A DNA stretch of 64,000 nucleotides from a virus: positions 36,208 through 100,207 of IMG/VR virus record IMGVR_UViG_3300027899_001695; one strand, written 5' to 3'. The position numbers and the translations under genes are program-made. Positions 10,524 through 54,414 of this stretch are shown here, piece by piece. The notes beneath the pieces are model-generated. The model worked only from the letters and a program-made list of their open reading frames with translations, was not told where the DNA came from and did not search any database. Within the stretch, counting starts at the first letter, position 1; every line of letters starts with the position of its first letter.

Positions 10524-12029
10524 ATGGAAGAAGTAATGTATACATATAAGTCTGGGGAAAATGAGGTAACTTTACAGGAACAAAATGGTAAATATACGGT
10601 TATTACGAATGGAAGTCCTGTACTATCTACTTCTGTGTTCCCAGATGCTTTAAATAAGTACTATCGTGATATTTCTACTATTTCTGATGCCCAGCAAAGT
10701 GGTCATGATATGGCTATGACCTTATTTGGTAATGAGGTAGTAAAAATAAATAGAGTTATTATTCCTCGACTGGCTCAATTGGGCCATTTAAAGGAGTCTA
10801 GGTATGTTAAAATGCTAACAAAGCAGTTAGAAGATGTTATGAAGTTTGTACCGCCAAGAGAGGCAGGGGCATGGATTCCGTCTCCAAATGATGGTGATAT
10901 GAATCAAGGCACAAATGAGATTAATTTACATCCTAGTAGAGAAAGCGGTTATAAAGTAAAGAAAGTTAAACTACGCCAAGCTGATACAGGTATGCAACCC
11001 TATAATGAGTTTAATGATTTACCGCATTCCGAAGTAGAGAGGCCCACTAAGATATCTAATACATATCAACAGAAGGTTAAAACTAGAGAACAAAGACCTA
11101 TTGAGGGAGATTACTTTGAACCCGCCTATTTAAGCAAGGAGTACCAATATAATACAGATTGGACTCCTGAAGAAGAAGCGTTTGCTAAGAAATATTATGA
11201 AGAAGAAAGCGGAGAAGGTAGCTGGGATAAGTTAGATGATTGGACTAAAGGAATTGAAATTGCTAGACCCACACACGAAAATATGACCAAAGATGACGTT
11301 ATAGGAACTTTAAGAGATAAATATGTTAAACCTGTTTCAAAAGATAAGGTATTAAATACAATACCTTATAAAAACTTACCTCCGCCTATTTTAAATATGC
11401 GTAAGTCTAGAGTAGCAAGAGATGATGCCTTTGATTTAGGCGAGAAGGTAGGTGTTGATTTTAATAAGGTAGGGTTTGATGATTGGATGGAAGGGTTAAA
11501 GATAGAGCATGAGCATAAAGATGTAGTGCATGATGACCATCTTATGATTGCTAAGATTGCGAATGCCCATCTTAAAGAAGACCCTAAGTATTACACAAAG
11601 CTTAAGAAATATGTAGAAAAGAGTTTAAGAAAAGAAGCAGAGAAGATGACAGAAGGCGAACAAGCACATCAGAATATGGGATTGGAGAATAAACAGCGTA
11701 ATGGCAGGCCTCAACCACCTATTAGTGGTGGAAAGATGGAGAAAGCCGCATTTTCTCCAGATGCCCCAAAGGTTGTAACTGGCGAGACACAGGAACCTAT
11801 TGAAATTCGTAAGGAGGGAATCGGTAGTTTTTCAATTGAAAATGCAGATTATAATCCTGAGATTGACAACAATGTAGGTCGTCCAAAGAAACTTGTTTTA
11901 CGCCAACAACTGGAGGACGGAGGCGATGTGGAAGAAAATAAAGGAGAGTTCTTTAAGAACTCAAAGGATTTTTATTCATTGAAGTCTTGGATTAGTTCAA
12001 TTATCGAGGAGAAACATGGCAGAGTATAA
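10524..12029 (+). CDS. Hypothetical virion-operon protein
   Basis: 501 residues, hydrophilic and helical with a His/Asp-rich patch near residues 325-345. It starts two bases after the previous stop; a second in-frame ATG lies four codons downstream. The extreme C-terminus (YSLKSWISSIIEEKHGRV) resembles the recurrent helix motif. No family recognised. Overlaps the next gene by 14 bases. Confidence 0.6.
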   Translation: MEEVMYTYKSGENEVTLQEQNGKYTVITNGSPVLSTSVFPDALNKYYRDISTISDAQQSGHDMAMTLFGNEVVKINRVIIPRLAQLGHLKESRYVKMLTKQLEDVMKFVPPREAGAWIPSPNDGDMNQGTNEINLHPSRESGYKVKKVKLRQADTGMQPYNEFNDLPHSEVERPTKISNTYQQKVKTREQRPIEGDYFEPAYLSKEYQYNTDWTPEEEAFAKKYYEEESGEGSWDKLDDWTKGIEIARPTHENMTKDDVIGTLRDKYVKPVSKDKVLNTIPYKNLPPPILNMRKSRVARDDAFDLGEKVGVDFNKVGFDDWMEGLKIEHEHKDVVHDDHLMIAKIANAHLKEDPKYYTKLKKYVEKSLRKEAEKMTEGEQAHQNMGLENKQRNGRPQPPISGGKMEKAAFSPDAPKVVTGETQEPIEIRKEGIGSFSIENADYNPEIDNNVGRPKKLVLRQQLEDGGDVEENKGEFFKNSKDFYSLKSWISSIIEEKHGRV

Positions 12030-15000: not shown

Positions 15001-15141
15001 GGTGATGTATCCACTCCTACGTTCAATGGTTCTGCAGGACAGAACTATAAGAAGAAGATTGGTAGTGCTTTGCATTTCAAGGCAAGGGGAGTAGAAGGAG
15101 TCTTTGATGTAATGAAGTCTGTTAAATTTGAGGATGTATAA
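12016..15141 (+). CDS. Large virion-type protein with HEAT/LRV-like repeats and GNAT-like domains
   Basis: 1041 residues. A Gln-rich basic N-terminus precedes repeats at about 150-310 (SGSPKVQTMALNKLS, KNPQIRARLVDKL, DSDPHVQAMAKKKL), like leucine-rich-repeat-variant or HEAT units. A first degenerate acetyltransferase-like segment (GKAAARRAIEISRNGG) lies near 500-560. A clearer GNAT domain covers about 860-985, with a beta strand IHIEYLASSP, a GTGKRIIYKLAKML acetyl-CoA loop and helix, and the terminal PFYERIGFKHDG motif. GNAT enzymes transfer acetyl groups from acetyl-CoA; the substrate here is unknown. RBS GAGGAG before ATG 12016. The fusion architecture is unusual. Confidence 0.62.
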   Translation: MAEYKWQRRERKQKKNRERMPKHGKAQAQIYSDSLEKREKEKNKLLGRIDKMLMKQTPLEDTMGKNLQTIKPQQLAKVTNTTIPQAGQQIKQQQTQNRQVGQNAPQQPPAQRNISFGPNGADLLPNEIKQRLDKFNSQDQLMQINETVNLNAKNPQDYEMAKYLARSGSPKVQTMALNKLSAQDLDTMIQPTSPNTDAVAILAQKTQNPSYMRSMTKHTSPQVRMNLLKNPNITDLTMSEMYDDNDDQIRNRIVGQSTNQELLHLFISDKNPQIRARLVDKLDHDGLKILLTDSDPHVQAMAKKKLQGRFSKMEKSGNFQKPKRPIFIQQETDRLDNNQTTSISPERLPHFSHLGDVGSNSVNGKTYNTPSFSNKSLILKEITHFIKKAEGEIEHRMLKPEDIQAWIEDQIKSAKEEYPDIDINDINSKNLSPLHSRVIKPIIYAKQLLVDYPELNAKDRANITGTFKNGKLEAVHSIRESGPFGSHLNVVLSHIKNANPNNPNASKGMGKAAARRAIEISRNGGKTLTISPDTNAAEWWRKNVKDPTNGMITIKPAEYEGVLSRMDTPKIENEMDEEFTSYAEPLRKDKIMKADKQKTFPIEGEQLPLPDVGHEYDKEATQFPVRLPTKANSYHNAFGRYYQGPDGGKRRLVPLDELIDAPKTHMATNLGMTESGRWYRHRFPDTMQDEAEQHESNREYDREEERRRLQQETDDDEREREYGYDSDRDDDEDITGDEDYSSSANLPETELPNGAIKRGDHVFHKARNIQINDEENEKFLRQASQEWSRYSNYNPSTSGKYGGRGGRGAASVSMLQGVLGSYFRDVRAKEEDPSYEPWNKYMFVTSKRGTKKKLEGATRYQMGDGNIHIEYLASSPRNEKGMPNRLNGTGKRIIYKLAKMLDKQSKVPGGNQLPYIHLTYLPDAVPFYERIGFKHDGYGLTLDTQGIRNLLKNVRKDDKSGSPFFRKDADDWDNGWDDPDDYAEDEVVNKAVGMVGDVSTPTFNGSAGQNYKKKIGSALHFKARGVEGVFDVMKSVKFEDV

Positions 15142-15865: not shown

Positions 15866-16642
15866 ATGTCACAAAGTGTATGGGATTCTGATTTTGGTGC
15901 TGTGTTTAAGCAAAGGTATGATATTCTTAAAGGAATAGATATAAAAAAAGGTGTCATGGGTGCTGTAGGTGGTGCAGTAGGCCATATGGTTGACCCAACT
16001 GGTGTAGTTGGTCCTGCGATTGGTGGTGGTCTTGGTGCAGAGTTGGATAAATCGGAGAAAATGGAGAAAGAAAAGATAGATAAGACAGGTTATATGGATA
16101 ATGAGTATAATAGATTAAATCCTATTGGTGGAGATAAACCTACTGCGACAGGGTATGAGCATGGTGATTCTCTACCGCCTAATCGGCCTCAACCATATAA
16201 TAGCCCACGTAGAAAACAAGATGTAAATGATGAAGATTTAGGTGATTTAAGAGTAGAGAATATGAATAAATCGCTTTATAAAGCTATTCGTTCTGTTGAT
16301 AGGGTTCTTAAAGAACTTAGAGTCGTAGATACAGGTCTTAAAGGAGAACGGGTAGGAGAGATACGCCACGACTCCAATCCTAAAGGTAGTTCTGGTGGAG
16401 GTACAACTGCTCCTAGACCCAAAGAAAGAAAATTGCCGATAAAGAAAGAAGAAGAGTTTGCTATGAGTATGAATAAGTCACTTAATAAGTCTATTAAGTC
16501 TGTTACTAAGATGCTTCATAAGCTTGATTCTTGTGGTGGTTCTACTGCTGGTTTAAATATTAAAAATGTTAAGGCAAAGAAGGATGGTGGAGGCGTATAT
16601 CCTTCAAAAACTCCTCCGAAGCCTAAAACAAGGAAGGCATAA
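15866..16642 (+). CDS. Virion-type protein with glycine zipper and two NKSL motifs
   Basis: 258 residues. Residues 29-57 form a glycine zipper (GVMGAVGGAVGHMVDPTG, then GPAIGGGLGAEL). Two copies of the recurrent motif follow: MNKSLYKAIRSVDRVLKEL and MNKSLNKSIKSVTKMLHKLD. Linkers are Pro/Arg/Lys-rich. This is the clearest carrier of the repeated helix motif, with two copies in one chain. Function unknown; possibly an internal head or pilot protein. Confidence 0.6.
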   Translation: MSQSVWDSDFGAVFKQRYDILKGIDIKKGVMGAVGGAVGHMVDPTGVVGPAIGGGLGAELDKSEKMEKEKIDKTGYMDNEYNRLNPIGGDKPTATGYEHGDSLPPNRPQPYNSPRRKQDVNDEDLGDLRVENMNKSLYKAIRSVDRVLKELRVVDTGLKGERVGEIRHDSNPKGSSGGGTTAPRPKERKLPIKKEEEFAMSMNKSLNKSIKSVTKMLHKLDSCGGSTAGLNIKNVKAKKDGGGVYPSKTPPKPKTRKA

Positions 16643-16643
16643 C

Positions 16644-17123
16644 ATGACTGCATGGTATAAAGAACCTAAGTATAACGGTGCTGGTATTATAGAGCAAATA
16701 GACTTAAAGAAAGCTATACCTGCTTTAGCTATGGCTGCCGCTCCTGTAGTTGCTGAAGCTGCAAAACCAGTTGCTCAAAATCTTGGGCAAAGAGCTTCAA
16801 AGCATATAGACAAAAAAGGCATTAATGTTCCTATAACAGGAGTTCCTATTGGACCTAGATTAAAAATTGGCGGGGATAAGAAAATGGAAAAAGAGCTTCC
16901 TACAGATGCTATGACGATGACTAATAAATCCTTAGTCAAATCAATTGACACCTTCCTAATGAGAAAGGGCATTCTTCAGAAGACTGCCAATAAGTCAGGG
17001 ATGGCTCTTGGTTCGTATCAAAAATTGGGCGACCCAGTAAAGAGAATGGTAAACAATAGTGCCACCATTCAATCTCCAGATGTGTGGAGTGCTGGAAAGA
17101 AAACAACTAAAACAAAGGAATAA
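16644..17123 (+). CDS. Virion-type protein with Ala-rich helix and NKSL motif
   Basis: 160 residues from ATG 16644; a longer upstream frame overlaps the preceding gene and lacks a ribosome site. An Ala-rich segment (IPALAMAAAPVVAEAA) could be membrane-interacting. TNKSLVKSIDTFLMRKG at about residue 93 is another copy of the recurrent motif. No family recognised. Confidence 0.57.
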   Translation: MTAWYKEPKYNGAGIIEQIDLKKAIPALAMAAAPVVAEAAKPVAQNLGQRASKHIDKKGINVPITGVPIGPRLKIGGDKKMEKELPTDAMTMTNKSLVKSIDTFLMRKGILQKTANKSGMALGSYQKLGDPVKRMVNNSATIQSPDVWSAGKKTTKTKE

Positions 17124-17125
17124 GA

Positions 17126-18568
17126 ATGACTGACTTAGATAGCATACGGTATAGGTTAGAATTACTATTAACCAAAGCTACACCTATGTCTGAATATGAT
17201 AGGATGATAAATGAACCAGACTTTGGTGCAGATATTGGTGGTATTCCTAACTTTTCTTCTTCTTCCGCAAAATCTAGAAAACCCAAAGCTCCTAAAATTC
17301 CAGTAGCGGAAGAGGGTGAAGTACAGCCGTATGTGTCTAATAGACAAAAGAAAGCAGAGAAGAGACGAAAAAGACAAGCAAAATTAGACGCATTATTTGG
17401 TCAGTTTGTTGACCAAGAACAACAAGGGCTTCCTCCTAATCCTAAATTAAAAGGTCAAATAGACAAATATCTTAGAAGAATGTTTAAGGTGGATGACTTA
17501 GATAAGGAATTAGCAGGAATGTCTCCTGAGGACCCTAATTATGCATCTACTCAAGATAAGAGAGACATGGCTCATAAGTTATGTGCAATTCGTGTTAATG
17601 CGGAGAAAGCAAAAGCCAGAACAAGTATGGGGCATAAAATGGAGAAAGCTTTATGGGGGGGAGACCCAAATGCTGTTCCAGAAGAACACCCCAATCAAGC
17701 TAAACAAAGCCAACTTAACTTCTTTCCACAACATGAAAAAGCACCGCCTGTTAGACCCCAGTCAACAAAAGAAGGCCGAAGAGTATCAAGACGCCCTTTA
17801 CGGAACTCGTTAATAAAGAGCATATTTAATTTTGGTAACATGCTTGAAAAAGCAGAAGGACCAAGAGACTATTCACAACCTGTCGATAGTGCTGAGGCAT
17901 TTAAATATCGCAGGAATGTCCCCTCTGAACGAAGGGCTAATTACGAAGTTCTTAGAGAACAGGGTTTTACACCAGAAGAAGCTACTCGCTTAAAGGATTG
18001 GAAACCTGGGCCTTTAAGGACTATCATCCAGAACAAAGATAAACCCAATAGGGGGTTAGACCCTGAATGGATTGATGACCCACAACAGAAAATGGATAAA
18101 GAGTTTGAGTTACTGGATGATTATAAAAATGCGGGAATAAAGAAAATTCCAGGAATGGAACCAATTGATGCAAATGAAGCACAAAGACTAAATCAGTATT
18201 ACCAACAAGTAGGTAAACCACTTATTCATGTACCTACACCAGAAGAATTTCAATCTCAAATGTTACAATACAAAGAAATGAAGAGAGAGGGTAAAGCACC
18301 CCCTATGTTTAACAAGGCATTAGCATATTTATTTGATTTAGATATCTCTAAAGCAGGAAATGCTATTAAGGAACTTGAAGACTTTATTAGAGAGTATGAA
18401 GCTACAATTAAATCAAGACCAAAGAACTGGTCACCAAAGGATATAGCTTCGCATACTCGTATGTTAAACAATGCTAAACAGCACTTAGAGGGCTACTATA
18501 AAAATAAACTTGTAGCTCCTGAAGCTCCTAAAATGCCCTTACAACAACAGTTACCTTTGGAGTATTAA
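17126..18568 (+). CDS. Hypothetical virion-type protein with recurrent helix motifs
   Basis: 480 residues, Lys/Pro/Gln-rich. The recurrent motif appears at the N-terminus (IRYRLELLLTKATPM), near residue 226 (RNSLIKSIFNFGNMLEKAEG) and near residue 393 (NKALAYLFDLDISKAG). No enzymatic motif seen. It starts three bases after the previous stop. Several copies of the tag-like motif in one chain suggest a structural or processed protein. Confidence 0.58.
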   Translation: MTDLDSIRYRLELLLTKATPMSEYDRMINEPDFGADIGGIPNFSSSSAKSRKPKAPKIPVAEEGEVQPYVSNRQKKAEKRRKRQAKLDALFGQFVDQEQQGLPPNPKLKGQIDKYLRRMFKVDDLDKELAGMSPEDPNYASTQDKRDMAHKLCAIRVNAEKAKARTSMGHKMEKALWGGDPNAVPEEHPNQAKQSQLNFFPQHEKAPPVRPQSTKEGRRVSRRPLRNSLIKSIFNFGNMLEKAEGPRDYSQPVDSAEAFKYRRNVPSERRANYEVLREQGFTPEEATRLKDWKPGPLRTIIQNKDKPNRGLDPEWIDDPQQKMDKEFELLDDYKNAGIKKIPGMEPIDANEAQRLNQYYQQVGKPLIHVPTPEEFQSQMLQYKEMKREGKAPPMFNKALAYLFDLDISKAGNAIKELEDFIREYEATIKSRPKNWSPKDIASHTRMLNNAKQHLEGYYKNKLVAPEAPKMPLQQQLPLEY

Positions 18569-19842: not shown

Positions 19843-20062
19843 TCGTGCACAGCATAGATTTATGGGTTTAGTAGCTTCTGGTAAGAAGAAAGTTAAAGGG
19901 CTATCTAAAGAAGATGCAAAAGAGTACATTCGTGGGCAAAAACGAGAAAATCTACCAGAACGAATTGAGAAATTTGTGCGGGAAAAGAAAGAAAAGATGA
20001 ATTTACCATATAATCAAGGAACGTTTGGAGTCTCCCAAGCAGGAGTAGGAGCAAGAATATGA
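19829..20062 (+). CDS. Small phage protein of the MPAVSxAQxRF family (DUF3008-like)
   Basis: 77 residues from ATG 19829. The N-terminus MPAVSRAQHRFMGLVASGK matches a short family common in phage structural regions, followed by a basic helical tail containing GLSKEDAKEYIRG. Function unknown in the family. It overlaps the previous gene by 14 bases and the next by four. Confidence 0.6.
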   Translation: MPAVSRAQHRFMGLVASGKKKVKGLSKEDAKEYIRGQKRENLPERIEKFVREKKEKMNLPYNQGTFGVSQAGVGARI

Positions 20063-21114
20063 TAAGAAAAGACTTAGGTAACTATATGCGTTGGAAAACA
20101 ATCCAACAACAAGGACCTTGTGAAGGACAATTTGATGGAATATGCCAAGGACCGAAGGGTATTGATGTACCAATGAGGCAACTTGCACATCGTAGACCTA
20201 AAGATAGAGAGGATGCTGAAAGAAGACTTATGTCTATGAACCAAGCTCCCAATAAAAAACCAGGGCATAAACCTAGGTTATATGATTCCTTGAATAGACC
20301 TCATGCGTATCGTCATTTATGCCCTACTTGCCATCTCCATCATGATAACCATATGTTTGATGAAGGCTATCAAGAGCCTAAATGGGTGCTGGATAATAAG
20401 TTTAGGCAGCTTATTAGAGATAGAAATAAGAATAAACAAAAGATAAAAAGGCATGGTGGAATTGTTAAATCTATAAATGACTTTGTAAGAAAATTTGATA
20501 ATACTATTGACCCAAATGAGCCAAGGCAAACAAGGTATTTACATAATTTACCTTCTAGAGACACTCATATTAAATATGAAGACCCGTTTGACCCTGAAAT
20601 TTATATAGAAGAAGAATCAGATGAGGAGTACGTTCCTGAAATGCACACCCAAAATACAAGATTGCCAATAGAAACAAAAAGATATAATAAGATAATGGAT
20701 AGAATAAGCCCTCATGGAAGTCAAAAGATATTGGATAAAATTGTGGGTAAAGAAGATATACCATATGCGAAATCATTATGTAAGTCTATTAATCAATTTG
20801 TAAGAAAGTTTGATACTTCTTATCTACCACATGAAGGAACGGCTAAATATAAACCACAGAACGAAGCAAGAGCAAGAATAAATAACAAGCTTGGACCACA
20901 CTCTATGTCCAATCGTAAGCAAGAAGTAAATCCAGCCTCTTCACCACCTATGGGGTTTGGACAAAAGACTAATCCTGAAGAGCATATAGTACCTAACTAT
21001 GTACCAAAGGATAAGACCCATGCTTTCAAGTATCGTGGTAGGACATATGATGCAAGCAGAATGACACCCGAAGAGCTTTCAGACATATTATCAGAGATGG
21101 AGCAACAGATATAA
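20059..21114 (+). CDS. HNH-type zinc protein with duplicated virion helix motif
   Basis: 351 residues. The N-terminal third carries an HNH/His-Me-like pattern: paired Cys (CEGQFDGIC), LAHRRPKDRE, then CPTCHLHHDNH. Such domains cut DNA or only fold around zinc, and phage head regions often encode one near the terminase. The C-terminal part contains two copies of the recurrent motif (IVKSINDFVRKFDNT and LCKSINQFVRKFDTS). Whether the HNH part is catalytic cannot be told. Confidence 0.55.
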   Translation: MIRKDLGNYMRWKTIQQQGPCEGQFDGICQGPKGIDVPMRQLAHRRPKDREDAERRLMSMNQAPNKKPGHKPRLYDSLNRPHAYRHLCPTCHLHHDNHMFDEGYQEPKWVLDNKFRQLIRDRNKNKQKIKRHGGIVKSINDFVRKFDNTIDPNEPRQTRYLHNLPSRDTHIKYEDPFDPEIYIEEESDEEYVPEMHTQNTRLPIETKRYNKIMDRISPHGSQKILDKIVGKEDIPYAKSLCKSINQFVRKFDTSYLPHEGTAKYKPQNEARARINNKLGPHSMSNRKQEVNPASSPPMGFGQKTNPEEHIVPNYVPKDKTHAFKYRGRTYDASRMTPEELSDILSEMEQQI

Positions 21115-22568
21115 TGAAGAATATTCTTCGTGACGTAGAACAAGAAATTGAGAGACGTGGCATCCAAGAAGATGATGTTGCAGATATTGTACAAAGTGTG
21201 CCTGCATTAAAGAATCGGAGGATAGTGGGCGGTTATGCAAGTGTAATTATGGTAGATAGAGAAGGCCACAAGATTACCAAAGAAGCTTTAGTTGATGCTA
21301 CAAAGAGATTTATGGCTGAGATTTATTATCGCCCCATAAATGTGTTTCATTGCTTGACGGGGGAAACTCAAATAAGAACTACCTCAGGTTATAAAAATAT
21401 AGAAGCAATTAAAGTAGGAGATAAGGTTTATACTCATACTGGAAAGAGCCAAAAAGTAACTAAAACGATTATGCATGAAAACAATGGCTTGGCTTTAAGA
21501 TTAGAATTAGAGAATGGTGAAGTTATTCGTGTAACAGACGAGCATCCTATCTTAACTAAACGTGGGTGGGTAAAAGCAGGTGACTTAACTACTCAAGATA
21601 TTCTTCTGCATTTAGAATCGTCTGCTAAAGAATACCATGATAAAGTACGAGGAAAGTCTTTAGTAGGTATATTTGGTATAGAGAAAGCTAAAGAAGTGTT
21701 ATTAAAAATGCGGGGAAAAAGAGAAAGTTATACTGTTACAGAAAAACATAATTCGCAACAAAGAAAAGGGCATACATGGCAAGAAGTATATGGTCATAAT
21801 AAACCTGATTATGGTGGCTGTGTTGGAGAAAAGAACCCTCAATTTGGTAACAAGGGTAGAATAACTGGAGAAAAGAACCCTAACTGGAACAATGGGGCTT
21901 CTCTTATAGCTTATGGAATAGGGTTTACTAAAGAATTAAAAGAAAATATACGAAAAGCGTGTGACAACAGATGCTTCTTATGTGGAGAACAACCCAAATA
22001 TAGTCTTTCAATACATCATATTGATTACAATAAGAAGAATAATCAAGAAGATAATTTAATTGCATTATGTAGAAAGTGCCACATGAAAGCACATAATGAA
22101 GAACGATTGGCTATTAAGAACGGAACTAATATCAAGTCTATCGAGAAGTTTTGGTATACTGGAAAGGTGTATAATCTTGAAGTAGATATAGACCACACAT
22201 ATGTAGGAAAAGGTATTATCTACCATAATTCAGATGTTACAGTTGGAAGGATACTTCCTAAGTGGGCAAACCCAAAAACAGGTCAGATAGTAGTAACGCA
22301 TGTAGATGATACTGGATGGTATATAGTTGCAGAAATTCGTGATGATGTTGAGATTGCTGATAAGGTATGGGAAGAGATAGAAAAAGGAAACTTACGAAGT
22401 TTCTCAATTGCAGGGTCTTCTAAAGATAAAACTGAGGGATATAAAGATGGGAAGTTTATGACTGAAATAACAAAGTTAGACATATACGAAACTACGATTT
22501 GCGAAGAGCCCGTTTGCCCTATGGCTAAATTTGACTTCTTCTATAATCCTAACGAAACTATAATGTAA
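21114..22568 (+). CDS. Prohead protease (XkdF/HK97-like, U35 type) interrupted by an intein
   Basis: The extein of 191 residues has IVGGYASVIMVDREGH, FH followed after splicing by SDVTVGRIL, GWYIVAEIRDD, RSFSIAGSS and LDIYETTICEEPVCP, the order of His and Ser catalytic segments in U35/XkdF prohead proteases that mature the capsid. The intein sits directly after H79, the likely catalytic His, so the unspliced protein should be inactive. ATG overlaps the previous stop. In this genome the scaffold-like and capsid genes lie nearly 30 kb downstream, separated by the accessory region. Confidence 0.75.
   Translation: MKNILRDVEQEIERRGIQEDDVADIVQSVPALKNRRIVGGYASVIMVDREGHKITKEALVDATKRFMAEIYYRPINVFHCLTGETQIRTTSGYKNIEAIKVGDKVYTHTGKSQKVTKTIMHENNGLALRLELENGEVIRVTDEHPILTKRGWVKAGDLTTQDILLHLESSAKEYHDKVRGKSLVGIFGIEKAKEVLLKMRGKRESYTVTEKHNSQQRKGHTWQEVYGHNKPDYGGCVGEKNPQFGNKGRITGEKNPNWNNGASLIAYGIGFTKELKENIRKACDNRCFLCGEQPKYSLSIHHIDYNKKNNQEDNLIALCRKCHMKAHNEERLAIKNGTNIKSIEKFWYTGKVYNLEVDIDHTYVGKGIIYHNSDVTVGRILPKWANPKTGQIVVTHVDDTGWYIVAEIRDDVEIADKVWEEIEKGNLRSFSIAGSSKDKTEGYKDGKFMTEITKLDIYETTICEEPVCPMAKFDFFYNPNETIM
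21351..22229 (+). mobile_element. Intein with HNH endonuclease in the prohead protease
   Basis: About 293 residues. It starts CLTGETQIRTTSGYKNIEAI with Cys1 and ends YVGKGIIYHN before extein Ser. Block B is VTDEHPILTKRGWV. Two NUMOD3-like segments (GEKNPQFGNKG, GEKNPNWNNGA) precede an HNH domain (CFLCGE, IHHIDYNKKNNQEDNL, ALCRKCHMKAH). Splice and endonuclease motifs look intact. Confidence 0.88.
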
Positions 22569-41921: not shown

Positions 41922-42143
41922 ATGAGAGGCATACGATTAATCAAGTCAAACCAAATTGCTAAAAGATATCTAAAACATTGTGGCTCTTGGTATCGAGACC
42001 CAAATGACAAAAGATTAATTGGCATCCTAAGAAAAACTAGAGTACCTTGTTCTTGTTGGATGTGTTGCAACCCTCGTAGAATCTATGGCAACGGTCATCT
42101 TGGAAAAACATTTAAGGAGAGAAAGTTAGAATACTATGAGTAA
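41922..42143 (+). CDS. Small basic protein with CSCWMCC cluster
   Basis: 73 residues from ATG 41922 (GGAGGTGCAA upstream). The Arg/Lys-rich chain with PCSCWMCCNPRR resembles short phage proteins ending in a CxCxxCCNPR segment. Function unknown. Confidence 0.57.
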   Translation: MRGIRLIKSNQIAKRYLKHCGSWYRDPNDKRLIGILRKTRVPCSCWMCCNPRRIYGNGHLGKTFKERKLEYYE

Positions 42144-42363
42144 AAAAACAGATACTTGGGCAGAGATGTTAGACGTCTTAAAAGACATCGGAGGACATTT
42201 AGCTACGGCTGATAAAAATGAAAAAGTTAAGCCAGTACATATGGAAACATGCTACTACTGCAAAGGACCCATTGAAGATGGAGTAGTCAAAGGTGGTTAT
42301 ACTTATTGCAATCTTGACCATGCGATTAAGAATACATTAAAAAAAGCGGAAGGAGAGAATTAA
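42136..42363 (+). CDS. Zinc microprotein carrying the scaffold-like N-terminal module
   Basis: 75 residues. Residues 8-29 (WAEMLDVLKDIGGHLATAD) are nearly identical to the N-terminus of the scaffold-like protein at 51443 (WGEMLDVLKDIGGYLAKAD). The remainder is a zinc unit (CYYCKGP, YCNLDHAI) ending LKKAEGEN. So it is a fusion of a virion-protein module with a microprotein. Possibly a capsid-targeted small protein. Confidence 0.65.
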   Translation: MSKKTDTWAEMLDVLKDIGGHLATADKNEKVKPVHMETCYYCKGPIEDGVVKGGYTYCNLDHAIKNTLKKAEGEN

Positions 42364-44653: not shown

Positions 44654-44836
44654 ATGCCACCGAATACTCTTCCTTATACTAGTTCTACTATAGGTAGTCC
44701 TCAGAATACCTTTATAAAATGGTATAGGTGTGAGTACTGTTATAAAGAAATACAAAATGGTACTCTTAGGAACAGTCATATATACTGCAATCTTCGGCAT
44801 GCAATCCTAGGGGCACTCAAAGGAGAACAAAAATGA
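44654..44836 (+). CDS. Zinc microprotein
   Basis: 60 residues. CEYCYKEIQNG and YCNLRHAILGALKGEQ; the YCNL-x-HAI segment is shared with 42136, so these two are close paralogues. Confidence 0.58.
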   Translation: MPPNTLPYTSSTIGSPQNTFIKWYRCEYCYKEIQNGTLRNSHIYCNLRHAILGALKGEQK

Positions 44837-45003: not shown

Positions 45004-45191
45004 TAAAAACAGAATCACATAAAGTAGTAGGTTGGGATAAATGTCATTATTGTCTTAAACACCACACAAAAGGCAGTACTATACTATATGCTATAATGAG
45101 TCAAGCTGATAATGGTTTAGGATGTCATCATTATGAAGCCTATTGTAACAAAAGATGTTTATTACTATCTGCATTAAAGGAGAGTAAATAA
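44994..45191 (+). CDS. Zinc microprotein
   Basis: 65 residues. CHYCLKHH, then CHHYEAYCNKRCLLLSALKESK, the LLxxLKESK variant of the tail. Overlaps its neighbours on both sides. Confidence 0.58.
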   Translation: MSVIKTESHKVVGWDKCHYCLKHHTKGSTILYAIMSQADNGLGCHHYEAYCNKRCLLLSALKESK

Positions 45192-45697
45192 TGGAATTTT
45201 TTATTGCCAATGTGGCTACAGGTAGAGAAGCACAAACTAAAGAACTATTAGAAAATAGAATCGAAGAAGCAGGTCTGGCATCTAAAGTAGGACGTATTCT
45301 CATTCCTACAGAGAATGTAGTAGCTACTAAGAAAGGCTCACGTGTAATTGTCTCTAAAAGAGTAGCTCCTGCTTATCTTATGGTAGAGATGGAAAACGAG
45401 ATAGAGTTGTTTTCTTTTATGCGAACTATTAACGGAATCTTTAAATTTCTAGGTAACCCTCCCAAACCTCTATCACAAGAAGAAACAAATCAATTATTGA
45501 CTTGGATTGTGGCTCCTCCTAGAACTCAAAAGAATATAAAAAGAGGAGATAATGTACAGATTACAGATGGGCCATTTAAAGACTTTGTAGGCATTATACA
45601 AGACATCAATAATAAGAAAGCTAGAGTCTCTATAATTGTCTTTGGTAAAGAAACTACCATTGCAATGGACCCTTTAGCTCTTGCTAAAATTTGCTAA
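45191..45697 (+). CDS. NusG-family transcription elongation factor
   Basis: 168 residues with both NusG parts: an NGN domain (FFIANVATGREAQTKELLEN at the start, RILIPTENV, APAYLMVEME, NGIFKFLG) and a KOW domain (RGDNVQITDGPFKDFVGIIQ, IIVFGKETTIAMD). NusG and RfaH bind RNA polymerase and promote elongation or antitermination. A phage-encoded copy may redirect host polymerase past the hairpins seen in phage leaders. Full-length and apparently intact. Confidence 0.85.
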   Translation: MEFFIANVATGREAQTKELLENRIEEAGLASKVGRILIPTENVVATKKGSRVIVSKRVAPAYLMVEMENEIELFSFMRTINGIFKFLGNPPKPLSQEETNQLLTWIVAPPRTQKNIKRGDNVQITDGPFKDFVGIIQDINNKKARVSIIVFGKETTIAMDPLALAKIC

Positions 45698-47698: not shown

Positions 47699-47787
47699 GG
47701 AAGGTTGCCAGAGTCTGGTAATGGCGCAGTCTTGAAAACTGAAGGAACCGAGAGGTTACGAGGGTTCGAATCCTTCACCTTCCGCCA
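47699..47787 (+). tRNA. tRNA-Ser (UGA)
   Basis: Acceptor GGAAGGT/ACCTTCC, loop CTTGAAA with anticodon TGA, long variable arm as in Ser tRNAs, discriminator G, CCA encoded. Confidence 0.9.
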
Positions 47788-47788
47788 A

Positions 47789-47863
47789 TGCGGAATAGCT
47801 CAGTAGCAGAGCATCGGCCTCATAAACCGATATGCGTGAGTGCAATTCTCACTTCCGCTACCA
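47789..47863 (+). tRNA. tRNA-Met-type (CAU)
   Basis: Acceptor TGCGGAA with a T-T mismatch at pair 1, D-stem GCTC/GAGC, loop CTCATAA with anticodon CAT, unusual T-loop TGCAATT. The unpaired first position resembles an initiator; elongator Met or lysidine-modified Ile is also possible. Confidence 0.72.
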
Positions 47864-47864
47864 T

Positions 47865-47942
47865 CTGAGTGTAGCTCAGTCTGGCCAGAGCACTTGCCCT
47901 GGGAGCAAGGGGTCAGTGGTCCGAATCCACTCACTCAGACCA
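47865..47942 (+). tRNA. tRNA-Pro (UGG)
   Basis: Acceptor CTGAGTG/CACTCAG, stem CTTGC/GCAAG, loop CCTGGGA giving anticodon TGG with C instead of U at position 33. CCA encoded. Confidence 0.78.
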
Positions 47943-47943
47943 T

Positions 47944-48020
47944 ACTCTCGTAGCTCAGTTGTATAGAGCAGGATGCTTCTAACATCAAGGCCGTGGGTTA
48001 GAGTCCCACCGAGAGTACCA
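47944..48020 (+). tRNA. tRNA-Arg (UCU)
   Basis: Acceptor ACTCTCG/CGAGAGT, loop CTTCTAA with anticodon TCT, CCA encoded. Confidence 0.9.
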
Positions 48021-48021
48021 T

Positions 48022-48096
48022 GCTCGCATCATCTAATGATAGGATACTGGGTTTTCACCCCAATAACGGTGGGTTTGATTCCCCCTGCGAGTACCA
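48022..48096 (+). tRNA. tRNA-Glu (UUC)
   Basis: Acceptor GCTCGCA/TGCGAGT, stem CTGGG, loop TTTTCAC with anticodon TTC, CCA encoded. Confidence 0.88.
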
Positions 48097-48097
48097 T

Positions 48098-48171
48098 TTC
48101 GGAATCGTCTAGTGATAGGACAGAGGCCTTTGAAGCCTAGAACGGTGGTTTGAATCCATCTTCCGAAGCCA
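48098..48171 (+). tRNA. tRNA-Gln (UUG)
   Basis: Acceptor TTCGGAA/TTCCGAA, loop CTTTGAA with anticodon TTG, CCA encoded. Confidence 0.9.
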
Positions 48172-48172
48172 T

Positions 48173-48247
48173 TTTAGAGTCGTCTAATTGGTAGGACCTT
48201 ACGTTCTGAGCGTAAAGATTGTGGTCCGAGTCCACACTCTAAAGCCA
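48173..48247 (+). tRNA. tRNA-Gln (CUG)
   Basis: Acceptor TTTAGAG/CTCTAAA, stem TTACG/CGTAA, loop TTCTGAG with anticodon CTG, CCA encoded. Confidence 0.88.
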
Positions 48248-48248
48248 T

Positions 48249-48323
48249 CTTCCTATCTTCTAGTGGTTAGGATTCCACCCTCTCAAGGTGGGGACGCCAG
48301 TTCAAATCTGGCTGGGAAGACCA
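48249..48323 (+). tRNA. tRNA-Glu (CUC)
   Basis: Acceptor CTTCCTA/TGGGAAG, stem CCACC/GGTGG, loop CTCTCAA with anticodon CTC, CCA encoded. Confidence 0.88.
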
Positions 48324-48385
48324 TAATATATAGAATTTCGTATACCTGAAATGTATGAAATGCGGGAAAGAAACAGAAGAGATAA

Positions 48386-48460
48386 GCCTCTTAAGTGTTG
48401 ATAGATACACACGTGGCTTCCAACCATGAGTAGTGAGAGCATTACTCACAAGAGGCTCCA
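48386..48460 (+). tRNA. tRNA-Gly (UCC) with aberrant T-loop
   Basis: Acceptor GCCTCTT/AAGAGGC, D-stem GTGT/ACAC, stem CGTGG/CCATG, loop CTTCCAA with anticodon TCC, T-stem GTGAG/CTCAC with loop AGCATTA in place of TTCRANN. CCA encoded. It would be missed by strict T-loop searches. Confidence 0.75.
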
Positions 48461-48461
48461 T

Positions 48462-48538
48462 AGGAGCGTAGCCGAATTGGCATAGGCAGCAGGTTTAGAC
48501 CCTGAAATCTAGGAGTTCGACTCTCCTCGCTCCTACCA
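48462..48538 (+). tRNA. tRNA-Leu (UAG), short variable loop
   Basis: Acceptor AGGAGCG/CGCTCCT, Leu-like 3-bp D-stem with 11-nt loop, loop TTTAGAC with anticodon TAG, but only five bases (AATCT) between anticodon and T stems. Confidence 0.8.
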
Positions 48539-48539
48539 T

Positions 48540-48629
48540 GCTAGCATTGCATAGTGGCGAATGCACCTGCCTGTAGAGCAGACACCCTTTGGGTAAACAT
48601 CGGAGGTTCGAGTCCTTCTGCTAGCACCA
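48540..48629 (+). tRNA. tRNA-Tyr (GUA)
   Basis: Acceptor GCTAGCA/TGCTAGC, loop CTGTAGA with anticodon GTA, long variable arm as expected in bacteria, CCA encoded. Confidence 0.9.
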
Positions 48630-48630
48630 A

Positions 48631-48707
48631 GGAAGTATAGACCAATTGGCAGAGTCATCTGCCTTAAGAGCAGAGTAGTGTCAGTTCGAATCTGACTACT
48701 TCCACCA
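48631..48707 (+). tRNA. tRNA-Leu (UAA), short variable loop
   Basis: Acceptor GGAAGTA/TACTTCC, loop CTTAAGA with anticodon TAA, five-base variable loop GTAGT. Same build as the other two Leu tRNAs here. Confidence 0.82.
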
Positions 48708-48716
48708 TTTTATTGT

Positions 48717-48793
48717 GGGGGCGTAGACCAACTGGCAGAGTCGTCATCCTCAAAAGATGAATGATGTAGGTCCGAATCCTACCGCCCTTACCA
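48717..48793 (+). tRNA. tRNA-Leu (CAA), short variable loop
   Basis: Acceptor GGGGGCG/CGCCCTT with two G-T pairs, loop CTCAAAA with anticodon CAA, five-base variable loop ATGAT. Confidence 0.82.
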
Positions 48794-48796
48794 TGC

Positions 48797-48870
48797 GGGA
48801 GAATAGTTTAATAGTAGAATAAATGTCTCCAAAACATTTGGTGTGCGTGCAAATCGTACTTCTCTTGCCA
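48797..48870 (+). tRNA. tRNA-Trp (CCA)
   Basis: Acceptor GGGAGAA/TTCTCTT with G-T pairs, stem AATGT/ACATT, loop CTCCAAA with anticodon CCA, discriminator G, CCA encoded. Confidence 0.85.
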
Positions 48871-48933
48871 TAATTCGTAGTTATATAGAGATTAGCACTG
48901 TATAACAGTATGCGGGAATAGAAACAGTACTGT

Positions 48934-49022
48934 GGAAAGTTGGCAGAGTGGCTAATTGCAAGGGTTTGCTAAACCCTCGACCCTAAAAAGTCACGTGAGT
49001 TCGAATCTCACACTTTCCGCCA
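48934..49022 (+). tRNA. tRNA-Ser (GCU)
   Basis: Acceptor GGAAAGT/ACTTTCC, stem AGGGT/ACCCT, loop TTGCTAA with anticodon GCT, long variable arm, discriminator G, CCA encoded. Confidence 0.9.
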
Positions 49023-49023
49023 T

Positions 49024-49100
49024 CAGTGAGTAGTGTTAATGGCTAGCACGGAAGGTCGTGGCCCTTCCAGAGTTGGTTCGAATCCAACCTCAACTGACCA
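49024..49100 (+). tRNA. tRNA-His (GUG) with bulged acceptor
   Basis: Stem GAAGG/CCTTC, loop TCGTGGC with anticodon GTG. The acceptor pairs CAGTGAG with CTCAACTG only if one A bulges. The canonical extra G at -1 is not evident. Confidence 0.72.
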
Positions 49101-49108
49101 TATTTTAT

Positions 49109-49183
49109 GGGCTTATAGTGATAACGGGAGCACATCGCACTTGCAATGCGATAGTCAGGGTTCAATTCCCTGTGGGTCCACCA
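49109..49183 (+). tRNA. tRNA-Ala (UGC)
   Basis: Acceptor GGGCTTA/TGGGTCC with G-T pairs, stem TCGCA/TGCGA, loop CTTGCAA with anticodon TGC, CCA encoded. Confidence 0.87.
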
Positions 49184-49184
49184 T

Positions 49185-49258
49185 ACAGGATTGGTATAGT
49201 GGCAAAACGTCTGCTTGCCAAGTAGAAAACATGAGTTCGATTCTCATATCCTGTACCA
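49185..49258 (+). tRNA. tRNA-Gly (GCC)
   Basis: Acceptor ACAGGAT/ATCCTGT, loop TTGCCAA with anticodon GCC, CCA encoded. Confidence 0.87.
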
Positions 49259-49265
49259 TTTTAAT

Positions 49266-49340
49266 GCCGCCATAGCACAGTGGTAGTGCGGTGGTTTTGT
49301 AAACCACTGACGAGAGTTCGATTCTACTCTGGTGGCTCCA
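49266..49340 (+). tRNA. tRNA-Thr (UGU)
   Basis: Acceptor GCCGCCA/TGGTGGC, stem GTGGT/ACCAC, loop TTTGTAA with anticodon TGT, CCA encoded. Confidence 0.9.
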
Positions 49341-49343
49341 TAC

Positions 49344-49418
49344 GGGTCTATGGTATAAAGGCTATTACACTTGCCTGTCTAGCAAGAAATAGGAGTTCAA
49401 TTCTCCTTAGACTCGCCA
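49344..49418 (+). tRNA. tRNA-Asp (GUC)
   Basis: Acceptor GGGTCTA/TAGACTC, stem CTTGC/GCAAG, loop CTGTCTA with anticodon GTC, discriminator G, CCA encoded. Confidence 0.88.
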
Positions 49419-49438
49419 AATCTTTTAGTGAGGTAGTT

Positions 49439-49873
49439 ATGAATGTCAGTAAAATATGTTGCGTATGTAAAGTAGAAAAACCAGTCGAAGAATTTGTTAA
49501 AAACCGCTCTAAAATAGCAAATGATGGATTAAGTTATTATTGTAGAGAGTGTACTAAATTATATCAAAAAGAGCATTATAAGAATAATAAAGCTAAGTAT
49601 TTAAAAAGGAATTCTGCCACAAGAAAGAAAAATCGTAATCTTATAAAAGATTATAAGAGAGACAAGGCTTGTATTTTATGTGGTGAATCTCATCCAGCTT
49701 GTTTAACATTCCATCATAGAGATATAAAGAATAAAGACTTTGATATAGGAATAGCTGCTGGATGTGGATTTGGCATAAATAAGATTAAAGAAGAGATAGC
49801 TAAATGTGATGTTTTGTGTGCTAATTGTCATCATAAATTGCATTATGCTGTTAATTATAGAATGCCCTCATAG
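49439..49873 (+). CDS. HNH homing-type endonuclease inside the tRNA array
   Basis: 144 residues from ATG 49439 (GTGAGGTAG upstream). An N-terminal zinc pair (CCVC, CREC) and an HNH core: CILCGESHPACLTFHHRD, then a long helix and DVLCANCHHKLHY. Such free-standing endonucleases cut and spread themselves. Its stop codon lies inside the tRNA-Arg(ACG) gene that begins at 49864. Codon composition resembles the phage genes around it. Confidence 0.82.
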   Translation: MNVSKICCVCKVEKPVEEFVKNRSKIANDGLSYYCRECTKLYQKEHYKNNKAKYLKRNSATRKKNRNLIKDYKRDKACILCGESHPACLTFHHRDIKNKDFDIGIAAGCGFGINKIKEEIAKCDVLCANCHHKLHYAVNYRMPS

Positions 49874-49938
49874 TGAAACGGATATCACGTGAAGCTACGA
49901 ACTTCAAATTGCGGATTCGATTTCTGCTGAGGGTGCCA
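49864..49938 (+). tRNA. tRNA-Arg (ACG)
   Basis: Acceptor GCCCTCA/TGAGGGT, stem TGAAG/CTTCA, loop CTACGAA with anticodon ACG (read as ICG), T-stem GCGGA/TCTGC, CCA encoded. Overlaps the end of the HNH gene. Confidence 0.83.
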
Positions 49939-49939
49939 T

Positions 49940-50014
49940 GCTCCTATAACTCAATGATAGAGTACTTCTCTCTTAAAGAAGACGTTGTAGGTTTGAGTCC
50001 TACTGGGAGCACCA
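49940..50014 (+). tRNA. tRNA-Lys (CUU)
   Basis: Acceptor GCTCCTA/TGGGAGC, stem CTTCT/AGAAG, loop CTCTTAA with anticodon CTT, CCA encoded. Confidence 0.9.
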
Positions 50015-50015
50015 T

Positions 50016-50089
50016 ACCTCCATAGCTTAACGGTAAAGCAGTAGGCTTTTAACCTATTGATGTGGGTCCAATTCCCTCTGGGGGTACCA
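50016..50089 (+). tRNA. tRNA-Lys (UUU)
   Basis: Acceptor ACCTCCA/TGGGGGT, loop CTTTTAA with anticodon TTT, CCA encoded. Confidence 0.9.
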
Positions 50090-50090
50090 T

Positions 50091-50165
50091 ACTCTCGTAG
50101 TTCAATGGATGAACAAGATTTTCCTAAAATCTAATATGTGGGTTCAAGTCCCATCGAGAGTACCA
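50091..50165 (+). tRNA. tRNA-Arg (CCU)
   Basis: Acceptor ACTCTCG/CGAGAGT, identical to that of tRNA-Arg(UCU), stem AGATT/AATCT, loop TTCCTAA with anticodon CCT, CCA encoded. Confidence 0.88.
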
Positions 50166-50166
50166 T

Positions 50167-50241
50167 ACACCCTTGGCCTGATAGGGAAGCAGCTCTTTTA
50201 CACGGAGTGATATGTAGGTTCGAATCCTACAGGGTGTACCA
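50167..50241 (+). tRNA. tRNA-Val (UAC)
   Basis: Acceptor ACACCCT/AGGGTGT, stem GCTCT/GGAGT with G-T pairs, loop TTTACAC with anticodon TAC, CCA encoded. Confidence 0.83.
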
Positions 50242-50242
50242 T

Positions 50243-50316
50243 ACTGGAGTCGTTCAATGGTAGGATAATGTGCTGATATCACATTGACGTAGGTTCAACT
50301 CCTTCCTCCAGTACCA
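50243..50316 (+). tRNA. tRNA-Ile (GAU)
   Basis: Acceptor ACTGGAG/CTCCAGT, stem ATGTG/CACAT, loop CTGATAT with anticodon GAT, T-stem with one mismatch, CCA encoded. Confidence 0.87.
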
Positions 50317-50329
50317 ACAAGTTTTCATG

Positions 50330-50404
50330 GGGGCAGAAACCAAATGATTTAGGTAGCTGTCTGCAAAACAGAATGACAGGGTTTGATTCCCTGCTGCCCC
50401 TCCA
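50330..50404 (+). tRNA. tRNA-Cys (GCA)
   Basis: Acceptor GGGGCAG/CTGCCCC, loop CTGCAAA with anticodon GCA, discriminator T as typical for Cys, CCA encoded. Confidence 0.9.
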
Positions 50405-50406
50405 AT

Positions 50407-50482
50407 AGTCCAGTAGCTTAATTGGTAAAGCACGGAGCTGTTAACTCTGGGGATGCTGGTTCGAATCCAGCCTTGACTGCCA
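50407..50482 (+). tRNA. tRNA-Asn (GUU)
   Basis: Acceptor AGTCCAG/CTTGACT with one mismatch, loop CTGTTAA with anticodon GTT, discriminator G, CCA encoded. Confidence 0.87.
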
Positions 50483-50483
50483 T

Positions 50484-50560
50484 GCTTAGGTAGCTCAGTC
50501 TGGTAGAGCACTTGCCTGAAGAGTAAGGTGTCGTTGGTCCGATTCCAACCCTAAGCACCA
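50484..50560 (+). tRNA. tRNA-Phe (GAA)
   Basis: Acceptor GCTTAGG/CCTAAGC, stem CTTGC/GTAAG, loop CTGAAGA with anticodon GAA, CCA encoded. Last tRNA of the array. Confidence 0.9.
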
Positions 50561-51442: not shown

Positions 51443-52222
51443 ATGAACGGACAAATGTGGGGCGAAATGCTCGATGTCTTAAAAGACATTGGAGGTTATT
51501 TAGCCAAGGCTGACACCGAACAGACTCGTGCCAGTATCGACAAGGCTCCGAAGATTTCTGAAGAGCAGAAACCTATTAAGGGTGATGGCGATTTAGTGCA
51601 TGGATTTGCTCCTGGTAAAGGCGTGGCTAAGTCCTTACGCAAGGGAATGGATGTAGACATTCCAGAGGAAGGAAGCGAGAATGAGAGTTTTACTCCTAAG
51701 GATGAGGAATCTTCAAAGTTTGCCAAAGAGTTTGGTGAAGAGGAAGAGTATGGCGATGAGGTAGAAGATGATGGGATGGGTGGAGATGATGAATATGCTG
51801 AGGAAGAGGAAGAAGAAGAGGAAGAGGAAGGCGAAGGTGGCGAAGGTGAACCGTCTATGGAAGACCTAAGTCAACTAAAATCACTCCTAAAAGACATTCG
51901 CAAATCTCTTATTCAGCAAGCTAAAACTGTTACTAGCAATAGTGGCATGATTAGTAAGGCAGACCTGAAGAAGGCTATACAGCCTATGATTAAAGAGGAA
52001 GCTCAACGTATGATTCGCAAGATGGGATTCAATCCCTCTAGGGCAGATATTGTACGTTTTGGCGTTGAAGATAGTGGAAACTTGATTCAAAAGAGCATGG
52101 ATAGAGAGAAAGCACAGGTAGATAAGAATGCGGATACTGTGGAACAACTGTCTGGTTTGTCATGGCAGAAGCTGGGGCAGATTAGGGAAAACCTTGGACA
52201 GTTTAATCCCTTTTACAAGTAA
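51443..52222 (+). CDS. Acidic scaffold-like head protein
   Basis: 259 residues, AAAGGAGGA upstream. Asp/Glu-rich in the middle (about residues 75-135), then helical. The N-terminal module WGEMLDVLKDIGGYLAKAD is repeated in the microprotein at 42136; a second recurrent motif is LKSLLKDIRKSLIQQ. Position directly before the major capsid gene, acidity and helicity fit a capsid scaffold or core protein that would be removed by the prohead protease. Confidence 0.68.
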   Translation: MNGQMWGEMLDVLKDIGGYLAKADTEQTRASIDKAPKISEEQKPIKGDGDLVHGFAPGKGVAKSLRKGMDVDIPEEGSENESFTPKDEESSKFAKEFGEEEEYGDEVEDDGMGGDDEYAEEEEEEEEEEGEGGEGEPSMEDLSQLKSLLKDIRKSLIQQAKTVTSNSGMISKADLKKAIQPMIKEEAQRMIRKMGFNPSRADIVRFGVEDSGNLIQKSMDREKAQVDKNADTVEQLSGLSWQKLGQIRENLGQFNPFYK

Positions 52223-52249: not shown

Positions 52250-53647
52250 ATGGCTAATGAAATGTCGTTAGGCGAATATCTAGCTCAGGCTCAGAGGAGC
52301 ATGGGTGGTGGTCAGTTTGGTAGGGTTTCTGGACCTATGACGGGCTACATGTTTGGGTCTGACGCACTTCGTAAGGGTACGCCTGTTGGTGGCGGAACTT
52401 ACCTAGACCTTGCACAGAACACATTCACCGCAACATACGGTAAAAAGGTCTGGGACGCTTTGAACAATAAGACCGTAACTTTCAACGCAATTAAAAAGGT
52501 TGATTGGGGTCCTACAGTAGGTTGGAGACTGAGGACAGATAGAGGTGTTGGCAGGTCAAGTCCTGTGACTGAAACTGGCAACCTTCCTGTAATCGATGTC
52601 TCAAACTATATTGGTGTTTATAGCTATCCGAAACAACTCGTGACTACTTTCGGTGTGAGTCTGAAGGCTCAAGCGGTATCAGCCCTTGAAGGTGGTATCG
52701 GAAACCAATTCTCTGTGGAGCAGGAAGCTTCATCTCGTGACCATGTCAAGGAAATCAATGGCGAAATTATGTGCGGTAGTGCTTTCCAGTGTATCACTAC
52801 ACCTAGTACACCTGCTGCAACAGCCTTTGCTGTTCCGCCAGCTGCGGTTACTAACTTTAGAGTTGGGGATACTGTCAATTTCTGTGATGCTACTGACGGG
52901 TCTTTTAAAACTACAGGTGGTGTAATTTCTGCTATTAATACTACTACAGGTCAATGTACTATCTCTGATGCAGGGTTTACTCCCGCAGATGGGGATACTG
53001 TATATGTAGTAGCTAGAAATGGTATCACAGGTCTTGATGATGCATGTATGGCTGATGGTTATACGATTGCTGCAGCTGGTTCTGCAAAAGCAAATGTGTA
53101 TAACTTCACTACTCGTGTGGCTGGGACATATTCTGCGGGTGCAAACTCACAGGCGTATGCTGCTGGTGTAGCTAGGGACTTGACTCTTCCTTTGGTTGAT
53201 GCAGGTTTCCAGACCATTCGTCAGAATGGTGGCGAGCCCAAGCTTATCGTAACTGGTCTTGACCAGTATGATAATTTCAACCAGTTTCTACAGGCACAGC
53301 AGAGGTTTGTGGACGTTACGGACTTTATCGTTGGTGTTGGCGATGATAGGACATATCCTGGTACTAGGGCTGGTTTCCAGCTTGCTACGTACAGGGGTGT
53401 CCCCATTCTACCTGACCCTGATACGGCTAAGTCGTATAATCTGGCAGACACCGCTCTTGGTTCTGATTTCTATATGTTAGATACGGACTATTTGGAACTG
53501 GCAGTAATGTATCCTACTCAATACGTTGAGAATAGGGATTACTTCGCAGCCAATGCTCTGGTTATTCGTGGTATGTTTATTACCATGATGGAACTTAGGG
53601 TTCTTAGGCCTGATTTAATGTACAAGATTTCTAACCTTAACACTTAA
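52250..53647 (+). CDS. Major capsid protein (HK97 fold)
   Basis: 465 residues with AAGGAGG upstream. The N-arm and E-loop/P-domain pattern (YLDLAQNTFTATYGKKVW, VIDVSNYIGVYSYPKQ) and the C-terminal LELAVMYPTQYVENRDY and LRVLRPDLMYKI resemble HK97-type capsid proteins. Residues about 185-260 form a beta-rich insertion (VGDTVNFCDATDG, GDTVYVVARNG) like an I-domain or surface Ig-like domain. Forms the icosahedral shell. Highest GC and codon regularity in the region, as expected for a highly expressed gene. Confidence 0.8.
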   Translation: MANEMSLGEYLAQAQRSMGGGQFGRVSGPMTGYMFGSDALRKGTPVGGGTYLDLAQNTFTATYGKKVWDALNNKTVTFNAIKKVDWGPTVGWRLRTDRGVGRSSPVTETGNLPVIDVSNYIGVYSYPKQLVTTFGVSLKAQAVSALEGGIGNQFSVEQEASSRDHVKEINGEIMCGSAFQCITTPSTPAATAFAVPPAAVTNFRVGDTVNFCDATDGSFKTTGGVISAINTTTGQCTISDAGFTPADGDTVYVVARNGITGLDDACMADGYTIAAAGSAKANVYNFTTRVAGTYSAGANSQAYAAGVARDLTLPLVDAGFQTIRQNGGEPKLIVTGLDQYDNFNQFLQAQQRFVDVTDFIVGVGDDRTYPGTRAGFQLATYRGVPILPDPDTAKSYNLADTALGSDFYMLDTDYLELAVMYPTQYVENRDYFAANALVIRGMFITMMELRVLRPDLMYKISNLNT

Positions 53648-53757: not shown

Positions 53758-54081
53758 ATGGCAGCTACTACAATTACTTCAGTTACACCTATTTCAGGTG
53801 GTAATACCGTCTTTGGAAATAAACGAATTGTTATTGCAGATATTGTGTTTGATGGTGGAGATTGGCCTGCTGCAGGTTTAGCATTGATAGGGTCGAGGTT
53901 TGGTATGCAAGCATTAGATGCTGTAATAGTTTCAGGTTGTGCAAAATTAAACTACAAATGGGCATCAGATGTTATTAATGCCTATGTTAGTACTACTGCA
54001 GGAGCTGCGATGACTTCTGCTTCTGGTATTGCGAATGATGAAACTATAAGAGTTACCGCAATCGGTTATGGTCTTAAATAA
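53758..54081 (+). CDS. Small head protein (decoration-like), copy 1
   Basis: 107 residues with ATAGGAGG upstream. Beta-rich. Conserved segments with the next gene: GGNTVFGNKRIVIAD, WPAAGLAL, FGMQALD, NYKWASD, IRVTAIGYGLK. Proteins of this type commonly follow capsid genes and may decorate the shell or complete the neck. Confidence 0.65.
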   Translation: MAATTITSVTPISGGNTVFGNKRIVIADIVFDGGDWPAAGLALIGSRFGMQALDAVIVSGCAKLNYKWASDVINAYVSTTAGAAMTSASGIANDETIRVTAIGYGLK

Positions 54082-54093: not shown

Positions 54094-54414
54094 ATGGCTA
54101 CAGTAATTAGTTCAATTACTCCTATAGAAGGAGGCCATACTGTTTTTGGTAACAAAAGAATCTGTATTGCAGATGTAGTTTTATCTAGTAGCACATGGCC
54201 TGCAAGTGGTTTAGCTTTAACAGGTTCTGATTTTGGAATGTCTGCTCTAGATACTGTATGGACTTGTGGTGGAGCTAAGGCCAACTATAAATGGTCTTCC
54301 AATTTACTACAGGCCTATGTTAGTACTGGAACATCTGCTGTTATGGGATTAGCCACAGGCTTAAATGTAGCAGAAACTATAAGAGTAGTCGCAATAGGTT
54401 ATGGCTTAAAATAA
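54094..54414 (+). CDS. Small head protein (decoration-like), copy 2
   Basis: 106 residues, tandem paralogue of the previous gene (GGHTVFGNKRICIAD, WPASGLAL, NYKWSSN, IRVVAIGYGLK). About half the residues match by eye. AAGGAGG upstream. Confidence 0.65.
   Translation: MATVISSITPIEGGHTVFGNKRICIADVVLSSSTWPASGLALTGSDFGMSALDTVWTCGGAKANYKWSSNLLQAYVSTGTSAVMGLATGLNVAETIRVVAIGYGLK

Follow-up and report, generated by a model that had tools for sequence, protein, structure and literature searches.

To our knowledge, peptides that target proteins into the phage head are known in few phages. Those of T4 are the closest to the arrangement considered here, in that IPI, IPII, IPIII and Alt carry a short N-terminal peptide on small and diverse payloads, the tag binding the scaffold core while the payload parts vary freely between phages (PMC9026906, PMC3012670). 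Ten residues of IPIII suffice as a capsid targeting sequence (CTS); the propeptides show an affinity for the core, and the scaffold gp22 and the internal proteins purify together (PMC9026906). The T4 tags are about 10-20 residues long, are found on basic proteins and are cut by gp21 at L/I-x-E (PMC9026906, PMC3012670). In P1, 30 residues at the N-terminus of DarB are sufficient for entry into the head and will send a reporter there, and the DarB paper reports no sharing of that signal with a scaffold (PMC9024508). N-terminal propeptides are removed from head proteins of SPN3US by its prohead protease, and that of gp47 has been proposed to target gp47 into the prohead; these are long propeptides of about 110-130 residues with A-x-E at their end (PMC7411985).

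In the phage described here the N-terminus of a probable head scaffold recurs on a small zinc-finger protein. In contrast to the T4 tags the shared stretch is about 19-26 residues long and is a recognisable copy of the N-terminus of the protein encoded before the capsid gene, and its putative payload, a zinc finger, is near neutral. DarB differs in being about 250 kDa and P1 is without a known separate scaffold; in contrast to SPN3US, no A-x-E processing site is established here.

Coordinates given below are those of the window, the whole 64,000-nt stretch analysed (36208-100207 of a viral contig of 100,207 bases), unless marked contig. The contig encodes a family A DNA polymerase, a bacterial-type RecA and a DnaG-type primase, and terminase, portal and Peptidase_S78 prohead protease genes are present, each of these three interrupted by an intein. 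This gene content, together with the tRNAs and an SU10-type capsid gene, identifies the uncultivated source as a tailed phage, and its host is probably a bacterium. The head genes needed for what follows are:

contig G000:C1:31639-35241, terminase with intein
15-2204, portal with intein
21114-22568, plus strand, prohead protease (Peptidase_S78) with intein, a possible processing enzyme
52250-53647, plus strand, major capsid protein of SU10 type (PF17236, 1.8e-9)

An array of 25 tRNA genes (47699-50560, with an HNH-like ORF inside) lies between the block of microprotein genes and the head genes, and in the relative L004 a tRNA group likewise lies 5' of the pre-capsid genes. Directly after the capsid gene stand tandem paralogs (53758-54081 and 54094-54414), the top-scoring protein pair of the contig, which are found in L004 too and are possible decoration proteins. 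Upstream of the window a Tubulin/FtsZ-family GTPase is encoded (contig G000:C1:22788-23792; PF00091, 1.6e-10). Near the microprotein block is a gene for a NusG-like protein with a KOW domain (45191-45697), which matches PF02357 at 1e-12 and a PHROG transcription antiterminator family at 7.4e-19.

The two proteins that share the N-terminal module, and their parts, are as follows:

42136-42363, plus strand, microprotein ORF, 75 residues, ATG start
42157-42213, plus strand, grafted module W8-D26 of the microprotein, WAEMLDVLKDIGGHLATAD
42250-42360, plus strand, zinc-finger half of the microprotein from C39, C-x2-C-x15-C-x3-H, paralogous to 44654
44654-44836, plus strand, zinc microprotein paralog without the module
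51443-52222, plus strand, probable scaffold ORF, 259 residues, ATG start
51458-51514, plus strand, N-terminal module W6-D24 of the 51443 protein, WGEMLDVLKDIGGYLAKAD
51875-51919, plus strand, internal scaffold helix, residues 145-159, LKSLLKDIRKSLIQQ, resembling the N-terminal module

The earlier note on this DNA had proposed that a module is common to the 42136 and 51443 proteins while the rest differs, and this is borne out. The two copies, with the consensus W(A/G)EMLDVLKDIGG(H/Y)LA(T/K)AD, agree at 16 of their 19 residues and, in the DNA, at 45 of 57 bases, and in both proteins the module lies at the extreme N-terminus, starting at residue 8 of the microprotein and residue 6 of the 51443 protein; outside of it the two do not align. 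Aligned locally with BLOSUM62 they score 86, the best of 2000 shuffles being 55 (Gumbel p of about 1e-7, or about 1.5e-3 once all protein pairs of the contig are counted), and the pair ranks third among all contig protein pairs compared. A profile (HMM) built from the scaffold N-termini of four genomes only gave two significant matches among the proteins of the 100-kb contig, at 2.4e-29 for the 51443 protein and at 7.2e-9 for the microprotein, the next standing at 0.24. Chance similarity is thus ruled out by the shuffles, the all-pair ranking and the specificity of the HMM.

The remainder of the microprotein belongs, as the earlier note did not say, to a family of zinc microproteins within the contig. 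The protein is a two-part mosaic, with its N-terminal third matching the 51443 protein and its C-terminal half matching the 44654 protein (a six-frame search gives E 5.9e-6; the pair scores 82 and ranks fourth among all pairs). That six-frame search with the microprotein found three places in the contig, itself, 51443 and the zinc paralog 44654. The ligand-pattern residues of the zinc half are C39, C42, C58 and H62. Like 44654, which likely represents the state before the graft, the zinc microproteins 43734, 44125 and 44994 are without the module. In the predicted structure a helix at residues 6-21 is of low confidence, and the zinc half has strands at 49-52 and 55-57 and a helix at 60-73 (block pLDDT about 81-84). 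Foldseek with this model returned weak matches only, among them zinc fingers of treble-clef, MYND, LIM and eL24 type, and no structural match with E below 0.4; no Pfam family was found, and the whole microprotein matched nothing significant in a phage collection (E 2 or worse). The C-x2-C ... YC-x3-H/C pattern is in common with treble-clef, MYND, LIM and eL24-like (TRASH-type) fingers, but, unlike those, the family of the microprotein and its zinc paralogs is seen in this contig alone. The contig has 85 small plus-strand ORFs, and CxxC is present in 30 of them; this phage thus encodes zinc microproteins habitually, and the tagged one is a special case among them. Small CxxC proteins are unusually many between 24488 and 50929, with some neighbouring paralogous groups such as 40724/40893/41066. 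The microprotein gene shares its first 8 bases with the tail of the ORF before it and sits among these zinc microprotein genes and away from the head genes, and its product is slightly acidic (pI 6.3).

That the 51443 protein is the head scaffold is probable from gene order, composition and predicted disorder. It is acidic (pI 4.5), 27 bases separate the end of its gene from the capsid gene, and a pre-capsid gene stands directly before the capsid gene in the close relatives L004, L007 and L008 as well (contigs of 5.5, 17 and 23 kb). The AlphaFold model has a helix at residues 2-26 (block pLDDT 73-79 for residues 1-20), then a long, low-confidence, disordered acidic middle, and becomes helical towards the C-terminus. 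An acidic, disordered and helical protein whose gene adjoins the capsid gene, in an order kept in relatives, is what argues for a scaffold; PHROG and Pfam give the protein and its relatives no significant match and no annotated scaffold family. The module is present in all four close pre-capsid orthologs, being retained in L004, L007 and L008 as WGEMLDVLKDIGGYLTKQD, WGDMLNVLKDINSYLEKQD and KTELLTLLKDMAAYFEKQD. The wider capsid family comprises 218 viral contigs with a capsid relative, of which 80 were fetched, and here about 65 pre-capsid proteins, encoded at the corresponding position, have a different, strongly conserved helix-like stretch at the N-terminus, typically GTNLALAAVAEVLQKMD. In an HMM alignment the N-termini of the 51443 type and of the wider family could not be aligned, so the two kinds have only position and character in common. 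A capsid search through the genomes of bacteria and archaea yielded none.

The internal scaffold helix reads LLKDI where the module reads VLKDI, and a KSLxKSIxxF-like helix recurs in proteins of the structural region, some having two copies. The carriers are:

12016-15141, carrier of the KSLxKSIxxF-like motif
15866-16642, carrier
16566-17123, carrier
17126-18568, carrier
20059-21114, carrier
51443-52222, carrier, in the internal helix of the probable scaffold

A first de novo search over all proteins recovered nothing but the CxxC zinc motif, whereas a search of the structural-region proteins gave NKSLxKSIxxF with a score of 159 against a maximum of 127.5 in 15 shuffles. The corresponding regular expression occurs 7 times against 0.77 expected, a count to be read with the protein set and the expression having been chosen after the motif was seen, and it is nearly absent from the relatives checked. 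A second-ranked motif solution (154) includes both module copies as putative members, and the relation of this motif to the module is only a resemblance and a lead.

The module is an ancestral part of the pre-capsid protein, and the zinc paralogs lack it; the direction of transfer is therefore from scaffold to microprotein, the pre-capsid protein being most simply the source. A recent direct duplication of DNA is excluded, the longest exact match being 14 bases and the synonymous sites heavily changed. Across the 19 module codons 8 of the 12 differences are synonymous (pS 0.70, pN 0.09; binomial p 6e-4), and as most differences between the copies are of this kind the module peptide is constrained while its synonymous sites have changed heavily. 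With L004 as outgroup all three residue changes fall on the microprotein branch, and if that branch is credited with half of the synonymous changes, the signal of constraint along it is weak (p about 0.06); for the microprotein copy by itself, constraint is suggested and likely but not proven.

Searches for further carriers returned the scaffold and one microprotein as the only tagged proteins of the 100-kb contig, the scaffold N-terminus HMM giving no other below 0.2. Within the stretches examined of L004, L007 and L008 the scaffold N-terminus was on no second protein, and the wider-family loci (10 kb to either side of the capsid gene, up to about 21 kb) held no second tagged protein. The viral contigs searched held no ortholog of the microprotein; queries with the microprotein or the module alignment found no relatives covering its region, nor did queries with the zinc pair, the 43225 protein and the NusG-like protein find one spanning it. 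Of the T4 CTS features, then, a short N-terminal peptide on different proteins of one phage (microprotein and pre-capsid protein) is seen here, and the tagging of several different payloads is not seen in the 100-kb contig; the graft is known from one case.

By analogy with T4, the chances seem about even that the module is a recruitment tag which brings the zinc microprotein into the prohead core. This reading draws support from the HMM specificity, the keeping of the module in pre-capsid proteins, the zinc paralogs that lack it and the synonymous excess, as also from the predicted scaffold helix at 2-26, the encoded prohead protease and the T4 and P1 precedents. It is weakened by the single example, the missing ortholog, the residue changes and borderline constraint on the microprotein branch, the slightly acidic pI, the non-head neighbourhood, the lack of a scaffold family match and the low confidence of the microprotein helix. 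Overall, use of the module as an address label is suggested but not proven, and recruitment as a tag is the best of several readings, partly supported. On such a path the opening codons of the scaffold gene, about 26 of them, would have become fused to a gene for a zinc-finger microprotein. The N-terminal helix would most likely pair with scaffold chains, or with a partner gathered by the scaffolds inside the prohead, and a microprotein with the same helix would then join the scaffold core during head assembly and so come to be inside the prohead. There the encoded S78 protease may trim it, and it may stay with the DNA and pass into the next cell, or else act in assembly only. We infer the scaffold role of the 51443 protein and the recruiting of the microprotein to the core by the helix; cleavage and injection of the microprotein are speculative.

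The same homology and mosaicism would fit a regulator of assembly rather than a cargo, in which the helix binds the scaffold, or the partner of its N-terminus, outside the prohead or at its edge, and the microprotein competes with scaffold chains so as to tune head assembly or scaffold release, much as a dominant-negative microprotein does. To put a lone interaction helix on a small domain is a usual way of building a competitor, but a competitor that binds the scaffold probably enters proheads too and so overlaps with the recruitment reading, and we hold this role to be doubtful. It is improbable that the helix instead recruits a factor unrelated to the head (a host chaperone, the membrane or a regulator) used by both proteins, prohead entry then being irrelevant. 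In well studied scaffolds, P22 among them, the coat-binding part is C-terminal, which speaks for this reading; however, a module kept in all the close orthologs, next to the capsid gene, is explained more economically by a head partner.

Whether the tag on the zinc microprotein does anything bears on the last alternative, a recombination relic left functionless by an accidental fusion. The single case, the three changed residues on the microprotein side and the branch p value are all consistent with a relic, yet the frame is open and 16 of 19 residues are kept with pS at 0.70, where a sequence of such age free of constraint would have lost far more of the likeness, and this explanation seems improbable.

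Returning to recruitment into the prohead, the portable tag of the earlier note stands in part, for the module does come from the probable scaffold, was grafted and differs mostly at synonymous sites, while the term portable rests on one case. The fuller proposal, that a scaffold helix has been re-used as a modular tag to load the microprotein into the head for delivery to the host, as an independently evolved equivalent of the T4 CTS, is tentative and rather unlikely. If it is true, the use of the scaffold's own N-terminus as tag would show the origin of a targeting tag by direct grafting from a scaffold, and head-loaded accessory proteins of uncultivated phages would be findable by sequence, as small ORFs that begin with a scaffold N-terminus. 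That would make the tagged zinc microprotein a candidate for an injected factor or a factor in assembly.
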